Assembly: GCF_000002985.6 (NCBI RefSeq) | Contig: NC_003283.11 | Coordinates: 8,928,001-8,992,000 of the forward strand | Source: Caenorhabditis elegans | Taxonomy: Eukaryota; Nematoda; Chromadorea; Rhabditida; Rhabditidae | Direction: 5' to 3' | Length of the DNA: 64,000 nucleotides | Part shown: positions 11,939 through 27,414 of the stretch, piece by piece | Position numbering within the stretch: the stretch's first letter is position 1 | Layout of the letters: the number at the start of each line of letters is the position of its first letter | Notes under the pieces: model-generated | Told to the model about the DNA's origin: nothing | Database searches by the model: none | The model's input: the letters and a program-made list of their open reading frames with translations, nothing else | Translations under genes and position numbers: made by a program

Positions 11939-14900
11939 TTATTTTCCTGAAGTTTTGAAAAGATATTCAAGTTGTGGAGGAACTGTTGGCAAGAGATCAG
12001 GTGGTGGTTGGAAGTTCTTGGCGAATTTTACGAACTGAAACAAAATTGGCTTTTTTTTTTTGATTCATTCAATTCGTTTTTTTTTTTCGAAAATTTAAAG
12101 ATTTTTTAAAATGTTTGTACCTGATCTTTGAATACATCCATAGCTCCAGCAGTATTAGCCCATCTTTGAAGTCTTTGAAGATTATCTAATCCAATTGTTC
12201 TATCAACATGACCCAACAATTTAGCCTGTGAATCTAGTTTTTGAGATCCGAGAGCCACTTCCAAAATATCAATGAAAGCTGCCTCTGGTGGAGTTCCGTT
12301 CTCAAAATGATCAATAACTTGGTTGAATCCTGTGTCGGCCTTGCTTAAAACACTCAAAAGAGCCGATGGTTTTACAGTTGTTCCAGTATTTTCAACTTGA
12401 TCAACTTCTTGTCCACTGTATGGAGACTTCCCTGCTGCGGCACCTCCAAGACCAACAGCTGGAACTGGTGGTGGGGGAGCTCCGCCTGGGAATACTGGGG
12501 GTCCGTATCCGTCTCCAGTTGGTCCCTTGGAACGAGAGAGTGCCGATTCTCCAGTGAAAAATTCTTCCTCTGTTGGTCCGGCGGCTGCCGTATCTCCTCC
12601 GAAATCTGGATCAGGTCCCGATGGTGGTGATGGTGCAGCTCCTCCAAATGGAGATCCGCTTCCGAAGCCACCACCACCACCTCCGAATCCTCCTCCCCCA
12701 CCTCCGAATCCACCGCCACCGCCTCCGCCTCCGAAGCCTGGAAACCGAATTTTTCGTTATTTTAAACTTAATTTATCAAGTAAAACTAGTGTTATCTTTG
12801 TATACTCATCCTGAAAAATTAATCTACTTTTTTCAAAAATATTTTTAACTTTAAAAAAGCACATACTTCCGAAGCCTCCAGCGCCTGCAAACTCTTTTGG
12901 TGGTGAAACTGGACGGAGACCCGAATTTTGAGGAATTACAACTGGCTCATCCTTGTCGATTGCAGCATTTGGTTGTTTTCTAAATCACATCTTTTCATGA
13001 ATATAAAATTTTAAGATTAATTACCGTTGAACATGTTTTGGTTTCTTTGGAACTGGCTTCATTGTTGTAGTTGCTGGTGTGGTAGTTGTTGGTGCTGCAG
13101 TTGTCGTGGTTGTTTCTTTTTTGGGCTCCATTTTGTCAGCTGGCACATTGAAATTAAATCCTTGTGGTCCACCTCCAACTCCGAATCCGATGTTCTGGAA
13201 CTCTGGTGGCAGCTCAGATGGTCCGAATCCAAATCCTGCTCCTGAATCTCCTGGTGGTCCGAGAACTCCGGAATCTCCATTTCCAACAATTCCAGAGTCA
13301 CCAGTACCAACAAGGCCAGACTCTCCATTTCCAACAATACCAGAATCTCCAGTATCAATAATTCCTGAGTCTCCTCCAGAAATTCCGAACGAAGCTTCAA
13401 CAGGAGCTTCTGTGGTAGTGGTTGTAGTTGTTGGACGACGAGAAGCAGTTGTTGGTGGTACGTAGATTGTGGTAGTTTCTGGTGGAAGAGTTGTTGTTCC
13501 ATATCCAAATTTAGCTCTGGCATTATTCATGAATGGGGTAAGATTTGGATCTTCTGGCATTGGAAGTTCAGCTTTCTCTCCTAAATGATTATATAAGTAA
13601 GTAGCAAAGCAACAAACGCATAGAAAATAAATTTTTGGATAGACCCAAAAGCAAATAGAAAATAGAAGCACCAACCAGGACGACGAATCCTCAGACGAGG
13701 GCGAACGGACAATTTTTCTTGCACAAATTTGACACCTTTCAGAATAGGTTTTGTACGAGAATGATAATTGCCAGAAATTGGTAGCTCAGCAGGCAGAATT
13801 GGTTGCGGTTCGGGTTCGGACGGAACAAATCCTAAAGCACAATTACATTCAAAGCCACCAGAAAGAAACACGAAATATTACCCAAAGCACATAAACATTC
13901 AAACAATTCAAAATGGACTAACCTTGGTCTAATGGGTTTACAACATGAAGAATCGGTTGGTCAATTGCTGGACGTTCAACTTCAACCAACTTTTCCACTT
14001 TCTTTGGAGCATTCAACTGGCGGATAGTGTAATGATGGCCAGAGTGGGAAGATTCAGATGATTCCTGGAAAAGTTTTTTCAAATAATATGATGCCGTTTG
14101 TGAATAAAACACAATTTTTAGATTTTAAAAATTCGATAATTCATTTGATAAACAAATATTTGGAGCGATATTAAAGTATTCTGGTTAAAAAACTATGAAC
14201 TTAGTTGAGCAACTGGCATAAATTTTGCTGAAGGCAAATCCAAGACTTGTTAAAAATATAATCACATCTGGACCCTTTTTCCTAAAATTTACAGTTGTTT
14301 ATAAACTTTTTTGAATCTTTTACTCAAGTTTTGTCAGCTTTTCAGCCAAGTTTTTGAAGATTTTGGCAGGAAATTGACTCAAAATGCCACGTAATTTTTT
14401 TCGTCTACTAAAAAGTTCAAATAAATCTTACAGTGTTGAGAAGTGGATGATTGATTGTCTTAAAATTGATACCCAATCTCTTCCATCTTGCTTCAATTCT
14501 CTTTCTTCTAGCTTCATCCAAACTCTTTCCATACTTGGTCAGAGTCTGAACAACATATGTTGTTGGCACAGTTTCTGCGGAAGATTCAGCTGACTCGGTT
14601 GTGGATGACGTCACAATTGGACGTGATGCTCTTGGTGGTGCAACAGCGCGTGGTACAAACACCTGATCCTGTAAATGGAATGTGGTTTTCAACATGATCT
14701 GACGCAGACTTTCGATTGAAACAAAAAGCTGGAGATAAGCGAGGTCATCGCCGCGGGAGAGCTTAGTTTCGTTTTCGGGTGGAAGCGAGAGTGAGAGAAT
14801 CTCGATTGTCTCTCTTCTTCTAATTCACTCGCTTCCCTTTTGCGTGACCGAGACAGAGGGCATGCAGGCTTGCAAACCAGATTTTGCGGTTTCGATTTCG

Positions 14901-19810: not shown

Positions 19811-22800
19811 ATGACAACGACATCATCAGACGAACTTCCTCGACAGGCGGACGACGATTCAATGAAATGGGATCGAATTTATATTCAGGTAAGGTTGGAG
19901 AATACCTCCTGCAATGTCCAAAGTAATTGTAAAACACTATTGACCGTTGAGATTATAAAAACTTTTGCGGGCCGGCCGACTGACACAACAAATATGAATA
20001 ATCCGAAATTGTACTATTTTCCTCGTTCTGTCATTTTCTTCCTTACGTGTCTTTCACTCCGAAAAATGACCTCTTTGAGCACAAAAAGCTGAACTGACTT
20101 TGTATCGAATTTCACCCATTTCGCGACTTCTTTCAAGTGTGCACGGTCTGAGAATTCGGTCTAGGGTTTTCACTGCTTTTTCGATTTCTCGATTTTCTCA
20201 ACTTCTTCAAACATGGCGGCAAAGTTGACCAGCATCTCTGTTGTTTTCTAAAAATAATTTTTTTTTTCAATTTATCTTATAAAATTTTGTAAAACGTATA
20301 ATTCTAATGATTGCGTCCAAAAATACCTAATGTTTCACAAGACATTCGAAATCAGGTCGGATTTATTTAAAAAAATATATATTTTAAGAGTTAAAGATTT
20401 TTTACAAGAGTTAAAAAACGCTGGATCAATTAAATCTGTTCGGTTTTGCTCTGAACGATCACACTTGTGTTTGTCGAGCTGTCATTTCCCTTCTTATTTC
20501 CACAGACGAAACTCTCTTTACTCGTGTTATCGAAATGCATCACGCATCAGGAATTTTTATGGCATAATTCTGCCTCCTTATCGATTCGCTCGTTTCACCT
20601 ATCGTTTTATTTTTTTGGCGCCTTCTGTCCTTTCTCTTCGATTTCCTTTTGATTTGCATTTTCGCTTCTGAAAAATCGGAGCTTGTACAATTTTCATTAA
20701 TTCAGGTATGGACGATCATCGTTTCACTGACACAATTTTGAGAACAACTAATGTTCAATCTGCGATACAAAGATTTGAGAAACGAGCCCCTGTTTCTGCT
20801 CCACCATATCGAGAATCTGAGCCATTCAGAGAAGTTTTGAAAGATGAACCGGCACCACCATTTTTACAAAAACAGAATTCCTATGATTCACCGTTGTTTG
20901 TCAACACTAACATTGTGTATCCTGTGGAACAAAATTCATATTTTCCACAAATCACACCTCCACGCGAGCATGTGACATATGGAATTATGAATGATTCCAA
21001 AATGGATGATTCTATCGATAGTGCCACGTTGAATAGATTCGAGACTGGTTTCAAACCTTCGAATTTCGGAAAAACCATACAAGGAATTTACAACTCAACA
21101 GAGCATCCACAGCAAACACCAGAAGTTGTACTACCATCGAGTTTATCAGTTGATCTGAATGTCATGTCACCTGAAGTGTCACCTCCAAAACCAGCTGAAC
21201 GGCGGAAGGTGGTTAAACCAATTGAAGATAACAGCGTGAGTCGGAATTGAAAGCAGTGCATTATTATTTTCGAAAAACAATGTGACTCTCATATCAAAGT
21301 GTTTTATATTTATGACCGTTTTCGAATAATTTTCCCATTTTTAACAAAAAATGTAGACCTTGGATGGTTGACCAGATACATAAATCATTTTATAAGCATA
21401 AAAGATAAACCTAGTTGTACAAATTCCTCTTTCTGATGTCTTTACTAGCTAAATTTCATTGGAAATTTGCGAAAACTGGAAGCAATTTCACTAAAAATAA
21501 ATATTTACCACTGTCTCTGCAAGTTGTCGTAAGATGTGGTGTTTGCGTACACATTTGAACTCTGAGCTGATGATTTATTTTCTTTTCCGTATTAGCTCAG
21601 TTTTTATCATTCCTTCCCCTTTTATTGACAAAATACTCGACCTCGAGTGAATTTTCAATGGATTTCACAAATTTTGGGTCCGAAATTGAGGTAAGCTTAT
21701 GAATTTTCAACCGAAAACCTTTAAAAAATCTGTTTGTTGAGGGTTACAGTAGATATTTGCTCGGCACAAAAGTGCAATTGTGTGTAGTGTGTGTTTTTTA
21801 GTACTCTTTCCGTCATAGTCAAATACTAGTTTTGATTCCGATTCGAATTCAGGCAATTAGAGAGTGAAATTGTGTCGAATAATTGAGTGTTCCATTTCTG
21901 AACTGATACGCCACCACATGCATTCAAATTCAATTTGTAATGCCAATCACATTGAAACAGAAATGTTTTACGGGATTCTTATTCATTTCTCAATGGTGTC
22001 CTCATTCTGGCGCTTCCTTCCTGAAGTACGTCTACGTTCTCTTCCGTACGTCGTTCCAATGAATTTGTATCCGGCGGACGCGTACTGCGTGATGGTGGGA
22101 GGGTAGCCAACCGAAGCAAAACGTCCTCTCTCGTTCGGTTGACGAGGACTGTACGGCCGTCTGCCATACACTAATCTGTCGCTTTTCTCCTCATTTTCGA
22201 TGCATTTTATCCTTCTGGAGTGGGGGCTTCTAATCCAAAACTTCGCTCAGCATCTCCCATTCTCTTCGATTTGTGTCACTTTCCAAGAAATTTATGAATC
22301 TAATCCCATAACAGATGAAGATGGTTTAAATGTGCGAAGTAATCATTCTTCTTTCAAAATCGTTACTACGTTGGAATGCAGTCTGTTTGCTCAAAACGTT
22401 TAGTATCCTCCTCCTTTATTCTCCCAGTTTCTCGGCCGTTTTTTCAACTGCTCGGAACGTACGCGATTTGCAAAATCGGACGGTTTTTGATCAGGCAGCG
22501 GTAATTAGCACTCTAATACCGTTCACACGTTCTTTCTCCACGTTTGAATACACAATTGCAAAGACTTTGTATTACTTGTGAAATTATTTATTTCATGACG
22601 TTTGTCGTTTTATTGTCAACTGCAATCGCCACAAAATATTATCTAGACGTTTCATGACTCTTTATGCTCCGGTTCGATATTTTTTCTTGGAATGGACACG
22701 TTTTCCAGCCCCACCCTTATTTAATCTCATACATATGTCTGATTCCACATGAACAAATCGAGTATTGATGCTCCAAAATCGCTACACTTGGGTTTCCTAG

Positions 22801-25800
22801 CCTATCCCGCTTCTTTCCTTCCCGCACAGACCACCACAGTTTCGGAATGTTTGAACAACACGGTGTGCTGCTGTTGCCGGTGTGACAGCGGCCCCCCGAT
22901 GGACGGGAAATATCGAGAGATGGTGAGAAGCAGAAATAGAGAAGAAATTGTACGGAAGAGTACAGTTTGGTGGTGAGAGAAGGCGCAAGAATCGGACGGA
23001 GGTCTAGTTATGTTTGTAGTCCCAAGGCGTGTATTATATTCAGAAATGTGCTTATACGTCTTGTGAGCATTGCTTAGCGCTTAAAGTGATTTTAAATCGT
23101 TCGTATAGCTGAAATTTAATCGAAAATTAAAAATTTTCTTAATATATATTGAATCTCCTCTCTGTGTTCATTTTAATCACCTGTAGAAACGCATAAAGAG
23201 TAGAAAGTGAAAAGAGGGCGGGCAAGTTAAGTGTTTGATTCATCATTAGGCGCAAATATAGTTAGGAGCATAAGAGGAGTGTCGTGTGTCTAATCAGCAA
23301 CTAGTCATACTCTGCAATCTACATACCACGCTCATTTTCTATCGATTTCCGTGTCTCTAACACCGTTCTGTTTGAAAAAAACTGTTTTTATTTTGGAGAA
23401 AGAATTTTACTATACAATTCAGCTTTCACTATGACGTTTGCTAATTCTGTAAGTTTTTTTGCTTCATCTTTTAACTTGCTTCATAAGCATAATAATTTGA
23501 ATTATAATTGAAAAATGTTATTGGCTGTGCAGCCCTTTCTCTTTTTCTCCGCAAAAAATTAGTTTTAATAATGGTCTCGATAATCTTTTTTCTTTATCGA
23601 AGAAAATATTAAATGATCACCACACTTTAAAAATGCATTTTATTTTACATCCTCGTATAGTTTTCAGTATGTCTGTCGATATTTTAATACTATTTGAGTC
23701 ACATTTGGGTTTGTGTACATGGGACAGTCATAAATATGAATCACGTCTCGCATATCGTTTTTTTTGTAACTGGTTTTTCTAACAGCACAAAATCATTATT
23801 TATTATTTCAATACATTCTACAAATTTTGAAAAAAAAAACAATTATTTTTTTTTCAGAAACTGGATCCTGAGGTGATATTCACAAAGCAAGAGCGCATTG
23901 GTCGCGGCTCTTTCGGCGAGGTTTATAAGGGTATTGACAATCGAACTGGACGAGTTGTTGCCATAAAAATCATTGATCTTGAACAAGCAGAAGATGAAAT
24001 TGAAGATATTCAACAGGAAATTCAAGTGCTCAGTCAATGTGATTCACAGTATGTCACCAAATATTTTGGCAGCTTTCTCAAGGTATTTTTTTTATAAATG
24101 AAACTTTAAAAAATCTAAATTGTTTCTGTTTTATTTTTGAAAATTTTTTAAGAAATACAACAAAAAAAAGATAATAAAACCAATCTGAAACATTTTTGAG
24201 CACCTATTTGAGTTTTTTTTTCAATTACACGAGCAAAATAAATTAGAGCAGCTTTAGTTCTATTTATATTGATAAACTTTAGCAATTTGAAAAGTAATCA
24301 ATTTATAGTCACAATCACAACAATTTTTCATGAAAAATTCAATTAAAGTAATTTCGTTTCCAAATTTGAGTTATCATTATTTTGGCTCAGCATGTTCCTC
24401 GTTAATTCACTAGAGTTTACCATTTTAAATACCATGTCTTACAATTTTTTCTATTTTTCAGGGATCAAAATTATGGATCATTATGGAATACCTCGGTGGA
24501 GGCTCAGCGCTCGATTTAACTAAAAGTGGAAAGCTGGACGAAAGTCATATCGCTGTGATTCTTCGCGAAATTTTGAAAGGTCTCGAGTATCTGCATAGTG
24601 AAAGAAAAATCCACAGAGATATTAAAGGTGAGCTTTTTTAGTTTAAAATAATTTCCAAATTAAATAAAAATTCGAACATTTTTAAATGGTTTTTATTTCA
24701 ATTTATTCTATGTTTGGGATTCAGGAGCCAACGTTTTGTTGGACCGTCAAACAGCGGCTGTAAAAATTTGTGATTATGGTGTGGCAAAACCACTCGACAC
24801 AGTTTTGAAAGCGAATACTTTTGTGGGAACTCCGTTTTTTATGGCTCCTGAAGTGGTTAAAGGCGAATATAGTATTGAGGTACTTTCAAATGATGTCCTC
24901 TTTCCCCACATATTGTCGTCTTTTGTGATTGATATCTAGTGCTTAATCTGTTTCCCGGGAAATCATAATCACCTATTGTATTACAACCCTTTTGTTCACC
25001 TTTTGTTCTGTTTTCAGCTGCAAATGTACTTGTAAGTGAGCACGGTGATGTGAAGGTCGCCGATTTTGGAGTTGCTGGACAATTGACTGAAACTGTCAAA
25101 AAACGTATCACATTTGTCGGATCGCCGTTTTGGATGGCCCCCGAGCTCATTAAACAATCAAGTTACGACTATAAGGTAAAGCTTTCTTCCTTTTATGTTT
25201 CCTATGTAAATTCACCCTGGTTCGATTAGTATCGTGAATGAAAAAATTACGGGAAAGTATAGTGAAACTTTGGAATATAATAAGGTATTTTTTGGTTAAA
25301 TTTATTGTTAAAGAAATTATTTTCTGTCAACCTTTTCGAAGTTTCACTGATTTTTCAATTATTCCAAAATTCTTTGAATAAAAACAAATTAAAGCCAGAA
25401 TAAATCAAGTTGAAGTTCGAAGGAGCCTTTCTCGATCAAAAATCCTGATTTTCCGAAGTTAGAACATCTAAACTTTTCTGTAATTTTCTCATTCACCATA
25501 CTTCTTATTTCAACCATATCACAATCTAAAATATGCAATTCAGGCTGATATCTGGTCATTAGGAATCACAGCAATTGAACTGGCAAATGGTGAACCTCCG
25601 CATTCTGATCTTCATCCAATGCGTGTATTATTCTTGATCCCGAAAAATCCACCTCCAGTATTACAAGGAAGTCAGTGGTCGAAACCATTTAAAGAGTTTG
25701 TTGAAATGTGTCTGAATAAGGATCCTGAAAATGTAGGTGTTCAAATGTTTGGTGAAGTTAATTTTTAATTTTTTTGATTCTTGCAGAGACCATCCGCAAG

Positions 25801-27414
25801 CACTCTTCTTAAACATCAATTTATCAAACGAGCCAAGAAGAATAGTATTCTGGTAGATCTCATCGAACGAGCAGCCGAATATCGGTAATTTATTGACCCA
25901 TTTTCACATTTTCTGAAAATTTCCTATTTTTCTTCAGGTTGAGGACGGGAGTTTCAAGTGACAGTGATTTAGACGAAGATTCTGATGGCGGAGGTGGAAC
26001 AAGTAAATGGGATTATCCAACGGTCCGCGGGCCACGTGTTTCAGCAGATGATGATGGGACTGTACGACAAAGGACTGATAGGCCAAGAGCTCAAGTTGAT
26101 CGAAGATCGCCTAGTGGATCTCCGGGTGGTACCATAGTTAGAGTGAGTATTACACTTTTGAAAATATTTTAATTTTATTTCTGCCGAAATGATAAAATAT
26201 TATAGTTCAAAAAAACTAATGTTCTTATTTACTGACAAAAAGCAATGCAAATTGATGTCGCCCTGTTGTTAAGAAAATTAAAGCGCTATCGCATGTTAGA
26301 AGCCCCACAGTATTCAATTTTAAGCATACCTGACTAGAACAAAAACTAGAAGAACTTTTTTGGATTTACGATTTTCAAAAAAAACGACAAAAAGATATTC
26401 CTGGGGAGACCATTTTTCATTTTTTTAAAAAATAATTCATTCATACTGATGAAATTACTGTATCTATTAAAATTAAGCGATCTTTTTTTCTATACTCTTT
26501 TTTAAAAAAATAACTGATTTTAGGGAAGTCCACAAGTTGCTGCAGTTGCCGAACAGCTTCGAAATTCTTCGGTTGGCTCCTCTGGTTATGGATCAGGCGG
26601 AAACTCGGCATCGTCTCAATATGCAACATCATCATTGCCTCAATCTCATACAGCTTCATCTGGAGGTGCTACTACCATCACGCTTGGAAGTCCAAATGGA
26701 AGTCCAACATCTTCACTTGCAAGAACACAATCCATGGTATCACCAAGTGGACAACGATCCGGTTCTGCCCAATCTTGGGAACTTGAACGTGGAAATCGAC
26801 CTATGAGCGAACGGGTATCATCGCAAGTATCCCCGTCGAAATATAACCAACACAGGACATCATCGAGCAATGGTGTGCAAGGTGGAAGTGGTGGTCGTCG
26901 AGAATACATCAATGGATCTGGATCTGGATTAAATGGAAATAGTTCTAATCAGAATCATTCTGAATATTCGGATGCCGTGCGACAACGTGGACCAGGAGGG
27001 TCCGGTGGTAGACTTGATTATCGTGAAAGCCATGTTCCGACATCGTCACAAGAAAATCTGAATCATGGTAGAATGTACGGGTACGGAGCGCCACCACCAT
27101 CAAGAGAAGCTAATAATGTTCCAATGCCTCGTGTGAAAGGTGCCCTCGATTGTAGTCTTCTTCCGGCAATCGAACATTTGTCTCGAACACGTCATGCGAC
27201 TGCTGCTCTCGATCAATTGAGACACGTTTTTCGAGATGTTGAAGATTCTTGTCCTGGAATCTGTAATGAGTTAATCGAAGAGTTGATGCAAAGAATTGCA
27301 GTTCCTCAGGTTTGTGGAAGCTCTTTTATACTTTTAAAACAATTATCTGACATTTAGGTGAGCCAAAGTGACCTCGATGCTGCCATTCGCCGACTGACAA
27401 CCCCACCATCTTAA
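19811..27414 (+). CDS. gck-1: GCK-1, GCKIII-family Ser/Thr kinase (MST3/MST4/STK25 type), 653 aa
   Basis: The longest-range model joins 19811-19888, 23858-24082, 24462-24627, one of two alternative exons (25018-25175 or 24725-24879), 25544-25732, 25787-25884, 25938-26142, 26524-27309 and 27358-27414. With the DFG exon it is 653 aa. Kinase landmarks are the glycine loop IGRGSFGEV (41-48), Lys63, HRDIK (152-156), DFG (172-174) and APE (197-199). A Ser/Gly-rich linker of about 250 residues follows. A helical C-terminus containing [16 protein letters not shown] is typical of GCKIII kinases, where it binds CCM3/PDCD10. Known biology: worm GCK-1 works with CCM-3 in germline integrity, apoptosis restraint, cytokinesis and tubulogenesis. 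Four first exons, all ending in phase 0, feed exon 23858, implying several promoters. The assignment is firm; isoform usage is inferred. Confidence 0.95.
20708..21235 (+). CDS. gck-1: gck-1 alternative first exon encoding a 176-aa N-terminal extension
   Basis: This is an open 176-codon exon that starts [11 protein letters not shown] and ends in phase 0 at a GTGAGT donor, so it joins the common kinase exon at 23858 to give an 803-aa isoform. An acceptor-like AATTCAG lies directly before GTATG, as expected for a spliced-leader site. Joining the first gck-1 exon (ending 19888) to that acceptor reaches a stop within twelve codons, so this exon is a separate start and not an internal one. The encoded region is Pro/Ser-rich with no domain I recognise. 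Confidence 0.85.
21658..21690 (+). CDS. gck-1: gck-1 alternative first exon (11 aa)
   Basis: ATG followed by ten codons ([11 protein letters not shown]) ends in phase 0 at a strong GTAAGC donor, compatible with the common exon at 23858. It would give a 638-aa isoform. It is too short to be found by length alone; support comes from start, phase and donor. Confidence 0.65.
23431..23448 (+). CDS. gck-1: gck-1 alternative first exon (6 aa)
   Basis: MTFANS ends in phase 0 at GTAAGT, about 410 bp before the common kinase exon. An acceptor-like CAATTCAG lies just upstream of the ATG, consistent with spliced-leader trans-splicing. The predicted isoform is 633 aa. Confidence 0.65.
24725..24879 (+). 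CDS. gck-1: gck-1 alternative activation-segment exon A (DYG type)
   Basis: This 155-nt exon enters in phase 1 and leaves in phase 0, with a good TTCAG acceptor and GTACTT donor. It encodes a complete kinase subdomain VIb-VIII segment: GANVLL after HRDIK, then CDYGVAKP in place of DFGVAGQ, then [15 protein letters not shown]. The catalytic Asn and metal-binding Asp are kept, as is the T-loop threonine in VGTPF. The end (KGEYSIE) differs from the usual KQSxYDxK. It is clearly homologous to the exon at 25018 and arose by exon duplication. Confidence 0.82.
25018..25175 (+). CDS. gck-1: gck-1 alternative activation-segment exon B (DFG type)
   Basis: This 158-nt exon has the same phase-1 entry and phase-0 exit as its neighbour. 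It encodes the canonical GCKIII version: AANVLVSE, then [16 protein letters not shown], then [16 protein letters not shown]. The residue that is threonine in VGTPF of most GCKs is serine here. It yields the 653-aa product. Joining it after exon A would read into a stop within six codons, so the two cannot both be included in a functional message. Confidence 0.9.

Follow-up and report, generated by a model that had tools for sequence, protein, structure and literature searches.

The window, by which we mean the whole stretch of 64,000 nucleotides of Caenorhabditis elegans DNA that was analysed, carries on its forward strand the gene gck-1 (T19A5.2), described as encoding the sole GCKIII kinase (MST3/MST4/STK25 type) of this worm. 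Both breakpoint sequences published for the deletion allele gck-1(km15) (PMC2757678) are found in the window, once each, at 24813-24825 and 26148-26159, and the 1322 bases that lie between them equal the base count between cosmid positions 13646 and 14969 (PMC2757678); the text of that paper also gives 1334 bp as the size of the deletion. When PDB sequences are searched with the two predicted isoforms of the gene (as queries carrying one extra Val after DPEN), the best 13 of the 60 sequences listed are STK25, STK24 or MST4 in both cases. By these closest sequence relatives, the predicted gck-1 product is a GCKIII kinase.

The features of the locus are collected in Table 1. An open frame extends from 23858 to the TAA codon at 27412-27414; it comprises 626 codons if the first of two alternative middle exons (A) is used and 627 if the second (B) is used. 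The two candidate first coding exons lie ~3.5 kb apart and are both in phase with 23858; the 26 residues of the distal one fit the R55/I64 residue numbering of the published GCK-1a protein (PMC2757678). A search of the whole window against Rfam at gathering thresholds gave 0 matches.

Table 1. Positions of gck-1 features in the window; a slash marks a splice border
Feature	Positions	Strand	Remarks
Distal first coding exon, probable	19811-19888	+	26 aa; phase 0 to 23858; predicted from ORF and GT donor
Proximal first coding exon, probable alternative	23431-23448	+	6 aa (MTFANS); donor GTAAGT; phase 0; predicted
Constitutive exon	23858-24082	+	kinase N-lobe start
Constitutive exon	24462-24627	+	HRDIK at end; donor common to A and B, AAG/gtgagc
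Alternative exon A	24725-24879	+	ggattcag/GAGC ... GAG/gtactt; catalytic loop end, DYG, activation loop, P+1 loop GTPFF, APE, KGEYSIE end
km15 deletion (published)	24826-26147	+	left break within exon A, exon B entirely gone; breakpoint sequences of PMC2757678
A-B intron	24880-25017	+	138 nt; GT-AG sites
Alternative exon B	25018-25175	+	gttttcag/CTGC ... AAG/gtaaag; DFG, activation loop, GSPFW, APE, KQSSYDYK end
Constitutive exon	25544-25732	+	ADIWSLG start; acceptor common to A and B, caattcag/GCTG
Remaining coding exons, common to both isoforms	25787-27414	+	25787-25884, 25938-26142, 26524-27309, 27358 to TAA at 27412-27414

A frame-locked pair of exons

An earlier note on this DNA, made from its letters alone, had proposed that exons A and B are homologous and mutually exclusive, each covering the whole activation segment from HRDIK to just past APE. 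When the splice borders are checked, its coordinates for A, B and the flanking exons hold to the base, and the motifs that it gave for A and B are as it described them. Both exons are entered in phase 1 and left in phase 0, and their lengths (155 nt for A, 158 nt for B) are both 2 mod 3. Their homology is borne out by tblastn (E=2.7e-12 over 46 residues, in a search of a 1.9-kb region) and by a full pairwise alignment, in which 26 of 51 aligned residues are identical; a search of the whole genome with the A segment matches the place of B at E=2.5e-7. No third copy of the exon was found between 24083 and 26000, where the next-best tblastn match (E=0.39) falls at the end of the intron before 25544. 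Adjoining homologous exons of similar length, with the same phases and with GT-AG sites each, A and B look like a tandem-duplicated pair.

Four joins between the shared donor and the shared acceptor can be read (A, B, AB and neither) and a full protein comes only from the two single-exon joins. Inclusion of both exons brings a stop at the sixth codon of B (LQMYL-stop) and skipping of both yields HRDIKG-stop, as the earlier note had it. Judged by frame, double and zero inclusion are thus non-productive. The further proposition that frame alone enforces the either/or choice stands only in part: the AB and skipped joins do break the frame, but the A-B intron, at 138 nt and with ordinary GT-AG sites, makes splicing of A to B look mechanically possible, and spliceosome geometry is not obviously a barrier. 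Since geometry does not obviously force the choice, frame together with mRNA surveillance and/or a regulator would be needed as its enforcer.

The worm acceptor consensus is TTTTCAG. The acceptor of B agrees with it at 7 of 7 positions, a full match that only 26 of the 3335 plus-strand AG sites in the window reach; the acceptor of A agrees at 5 of 7, and so does the downstream acceptor common to both. The donors of A and B score alike (7/11). A scan of the three flanking introns for splicing-factor motifs (twelve strings from recall) found only UCUU, which is uninformative. Because the acceptor of B is perfect and its sequence the more canonical, and because the acceptor of A is poorer, these comparisons suggest that B is the default and A the regulated form.

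Predicted competence of the A form

The catalytic residues were said to be kept in both variants, and for A this is so: the catalytic Asp and Asn, DxG, the T-loop Thr, GT and APE are all present. Against the Pfam Pkinase model the A isoform scores 226 bits and the B isoform 233 (the queries again with one extra Val after DPEN), compared with 148 for a test protein from which the segment had been removed in frame. B is the version closer to the human GCKIII kinases.

The contrast of DYG in A with DFG in B, to which the earlier note drew attention, is present as stated, but DYG is not exotic, being used by atypical PKC. At 26 worm loci outside gck-1 the motif is DFG in 25 and DYG in one (L017), the best solved relative of which is human PKC iota, likewise with DYG. 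The GTPFF P+1 loop of A also occurs at another worm locus, L006, for which the solved relatives listed at E<=1e-15 are three TAO kinase sequences and no others. At ~1507-1665 this TAO-like locus reads GTPFFMAPE where human TAO3 reads GTPYWMAPE, the same P+1 Trp-to-Phe change as in exon A.

Of the residues that are invariant in five STE20 kinases, six have been lost by A (L, F, Q, T, R and W, the T lying in an ambiguously aligned stretch) and four by B. Among the losses of A are the DFG Phe, the P+1 Trp and the Arg that precedes the T-loop. Together with the longer branch of A in the trees described below, these six losses could mean reduced function; altered specificity and lowered activity of the A form would both fit.

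Selective maintenance of exon A

The silent sites of A and B are very different: fourfold sites agree at 2 of 14 and third positions at 15 of 51, and the NG86 estimate of dS is not finite. With the base composition of the window, agreement at 2 of 14 fourfold sites rejects, at the 5% level, any total A-B distance up to ~1.3 substitutions per site. Simulated drift without selection, by substitutions only and with no insertions or deletions, seldom leaves anything like exon A at such distances. With 0.65, half of that distance, placed on the branch of A, 611 of 10000 copies remained free of stops, 1 reached an identity of at least 26/51, and 0 did both; copies that did both numbered 11 of 10000 at 0.5 and 106 of 10000 at 0.4. 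At 1.0, with all of the divergence placed on one branch and the identity bar set at 52% (the observed 26/51 is slightly lower), the best of 4000 copies retained 34% identity. Taken alone the drift test would be weakened only if most of the silent divergence lay on the branch of B.

A comparison with human STK25 is independent of how the silent divergence splits between the two branches. Exon A and STK25 differ at 24 of 51 aligned residues, yet of the 13 columns with conservation of 80% or more across 21 other kinases just 1 is affected (hypergeometric P=0.0009), by the change from DFG to DYG. The 21 comprise two human sequences and 19 of the 30 worm loci fetched; left out were gck-1 itself (two loci), L004, which duplicates L003, and eight loci that do not cover the segment. 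Of the 13 columns, 12 are retained in A and 11 in B; the corresponding test for B (2/13, P=0.45), where changes are few, is not significant.

The case that the earlier note had named as the refutation of its proposal, that exon A is a relic duplicate, is thus the opposite of what these within-genome tests return: frame, splice sites and kinase core are intact, and A does not show the loss of frame, splice sites or conserved residues by which a relic or pseudo-exon would be recognized. That exon A has been kept by purifying selection for kinase function over a long time is, on this evidence, well supported. Being made within one genome, the tests reach long maintenance and not present-day expression, and a very recent loss of function would escape them. 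Exon A should, by prediction, be conserved in other nematodes.

Age and origin of the pair

There are nine positions at which B has left the state common to STK25 and MST3. A shows the ancestral residue at four of them (L, N, T and V), the residue of B at none, and another residue or a gap at five; an alternative gap placement, that of the pairwise alignment, would permit one Val common to A and B. Since A holds ancestral residues that B has lost, an old duplication is suggested. The A/B split would appear to predate most of the changes of B itself, and we would place it early on the line to C. elegans, after its parting from vertebrates.

Over the exon, the multiple alignment gives identities of 27/51 for A and STK25, 23/51 for A and B, and 42/53 for B and STK25. 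In two trees the branch of A measures 0.67 and 1.07 and that of B 0.27 and 0.24, making A ~2.5 to 4.5 times longer. Free trees of ~52 residues place A, with modest support, nearer to other worm STE20-like loci (L005, L007 and L006) than to B and human STK25/MST3. In an AU test with 10 sequences, sisterhood of A and B has p=0.36 and none of the four topologies that were compared falls outside the 95% set. The tandem position of the exons and their matching phases nonetheless lead us to favour a simple exon duplication.

Interpretation

The pair is well supported as real, apparently old and frame-locked, in its existence and in its maintenance; splicing use, tissue pattern and biochemical difference of A and B are what we infer from it. 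The best explanation, which we think probable, is that two adjacent homologous exons of old origin are used one at a time to swap the activation segment of gck-1. Splicing would pick A or B, with B as the default and A under regulation, and nonsense-mediated decay would clear the AB and skipped products. The two isoforms, which have a C-terminal tail in common, would also share the ATP lobe and the ERK-docking site, and would differ at the Phe/Tyr position of the magnesium loop, in the neighbours of the T-loop threonine, in the P+1 pocket and where the alpha-EF region begins. Such differences would most likely make for differing autoactivation and for differences in the substrates phosphorylated, so that the one gck-1 gene probably makes two differently tuned enzymes. 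More tentatively, and with somewhat less than even confidence, the pair can be seen as an ancient nematode switch, in which the whole activation segment of a GCKIII kinase required for fertility is swapped to give two active kinases with the same regulators and the same tail but with different activation rules and substrates by tissue, for example in germline and excretory canal.

That the A form is active is the point at which another reading departs. The A form might be a GCK-1 with little or no catalytic activity that can still bind partners (CCM-3, for example, or MPK-1 through the N-terminal docking site), so that splicing tunes the kinase dose or yields a scaffold. The three losses from the STE20-invariant set at the DFG Phe, the P+1 Trp and the Arg before the T-loop, as well as the longer branch of A, lean that way, and GCK-1 has been suggested to act perhaps by binding and sequestering MPK-1 (PMC2757678). 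We nevertheless consider it unlikely, the catalytic residues and motifs named above having all been kept and DYG and GTPFF each recurring in another kinase; a scaffold, moreover, would not be expected to keep 12 of the 13 conserved columns. The same retention bears on the proposal that exon A, left over from an old duplication, is a relic or a minor, noise-level exon with no present role. Its weaker acceptor and faster divergence are what such an exon might show, but preservation of frame, splice sites and kinase core in the face of silent divergence near saturation makes that quite improbable.

A different question is whether A came from B at all, rather than from another STE20 kinase (MAP4K-like) or from a time before the GCKIII group. 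The position of A in the free trees, near L005, L007 and L006, and its greater closeness to STK25 than to B in the multiple alignment would be accounted for in this way; sisterhood of A and B is not rejected, however, and tandem position with the same entry and exit phases fits simple duplication, while the L007 match continues without an intron where exon A ends. An origin other than from B is, on balance, rather improbable. Least credible, and in our estimate highly improbable, is that the pair serves mainly as a regulated-decay switch, with AB or skipped products made on purpose to cut the level of GCK-1. Early stops in both mis-spliced products and an A-B intron that is ordinary in length and sites would permit it, but a pure poison exon needs no maintained in-frame kinase segment.

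CCM-3 is a co-factor of GCK-1 (PMC9676254), and the two are the worm counterparts of the GCKIII/CCM3 module that is linked to cerebral cavernous malformation (compare PMC6663315). The deletion km15, starting inside A and removing B, cannot separate the isoforms and should disrupt both variants. RNAi in the 2009 paper used full-length cDNA (PMC2757678) and so does not separate them either. If the pair is used as we propose, the km15 and RNAi phenotypes of that paper pool two possible isoforms. Two kinases that differed in the activation segment alone would, if real, offer a clean natural experiment on the role of that segment in activation and substrate choice.

Relation to known systems

The alternative exon pair of JNK sits after the activation segment (subdomains IX-X), whereas gck-1 swaps the activation segment itself, from DxG to APE, and belongs to another kinase family. 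Like those of gck-1, exons 7a/7b of mammalian JNK1/JNK2 are either/or exons within a protein kinase catalytic domain, the choice between which seems to alter kinase activity and may bear on substrate specificity (PMC8746764). FYN offers another likeness, its FynT/FynB pair being tandem duplicated, mutually exclusive exons in a kinase gene, with isoforms that differ in partner binding and phosphorylation; the FYN exon spans the SH2-kinase linker and, in the kinase domain, the N-terminal portion that holds the ATP site, in contrast to the C-lobe activation segment of the gck-1 exon (PMC9741552). Three C. elegans genes, unc-32 (which encodes a V-ATPase subunit; PMC6105014), egl-15 and let-2, have mutually exclusive exons whose choice is governed by cell type or by development (PMC3585155). 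For these three, in contrast to gck-1, the regulators are known. The egl-15 pair belongs to an FGF receptor and lies outside its kinase part, and let-2 is a collagen gene. The best solved relatives of both gck-1 isoforms among the PDB sequences listed are MST3, MST4 and STK25, the vertebrate genes for which are not known to contain a pair of activation-segment exons.

The earlier note knew of no description of the gck-1 pair. A literature search agrees, in that none of the titles and abstracts that it found (subscription papers and supplementary tables being outside its scope) deals with the exon pair of gck-1 or with activation segments that are mutually exclusive. Against this, WormBase predicted four gck-1 isoforms as long ago as 2009 (Schouest et al. 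2009, PMC2757678), so that the pair may already be annotated; two first coding exons combined with two middle exons would give four. The Kassiopeia catalogue, with 389 predicted mutually exclusive exons in 138 worm genes (PMC3923563), may list it as well. GCKIII is absent from the 12 gene families named as having such events in worm, fly and human, among which a worm-only event would not figure (PMC9741552). The splicing of gck-1 is not treated in the accessible portions of PMC5913292, PMC3585155, PMC3771449, PMC9676254, PMC3775402, PMC12005262 and PMC6105014.

The B segment, searched against the worm genome in a way that would miss kinases unlike GCKs, matches at least 139 places at E<=0.1 (150 of 181 candidates having been scored). 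Among the matches listed, and judged by eye, gck-1 is the only place at which two matches less than 1 kb apart share most of their query range. Three other close pairs, all on C6, were considered as a second worm kinase with a tandem activation segment and set aside: they are successive pieces, with query overlaps of 0, 5 and 13 positions, and no such kinase is found among the matches listed. Also on C6, L003 (4334940, minus strand) and L004 (4340541, plus strand) lie in opposite orientation ~5.6 kb apart and have identical match scores to the activation segment; presumably they are the cst-1/cst-2 (MST1/2-like) pair.
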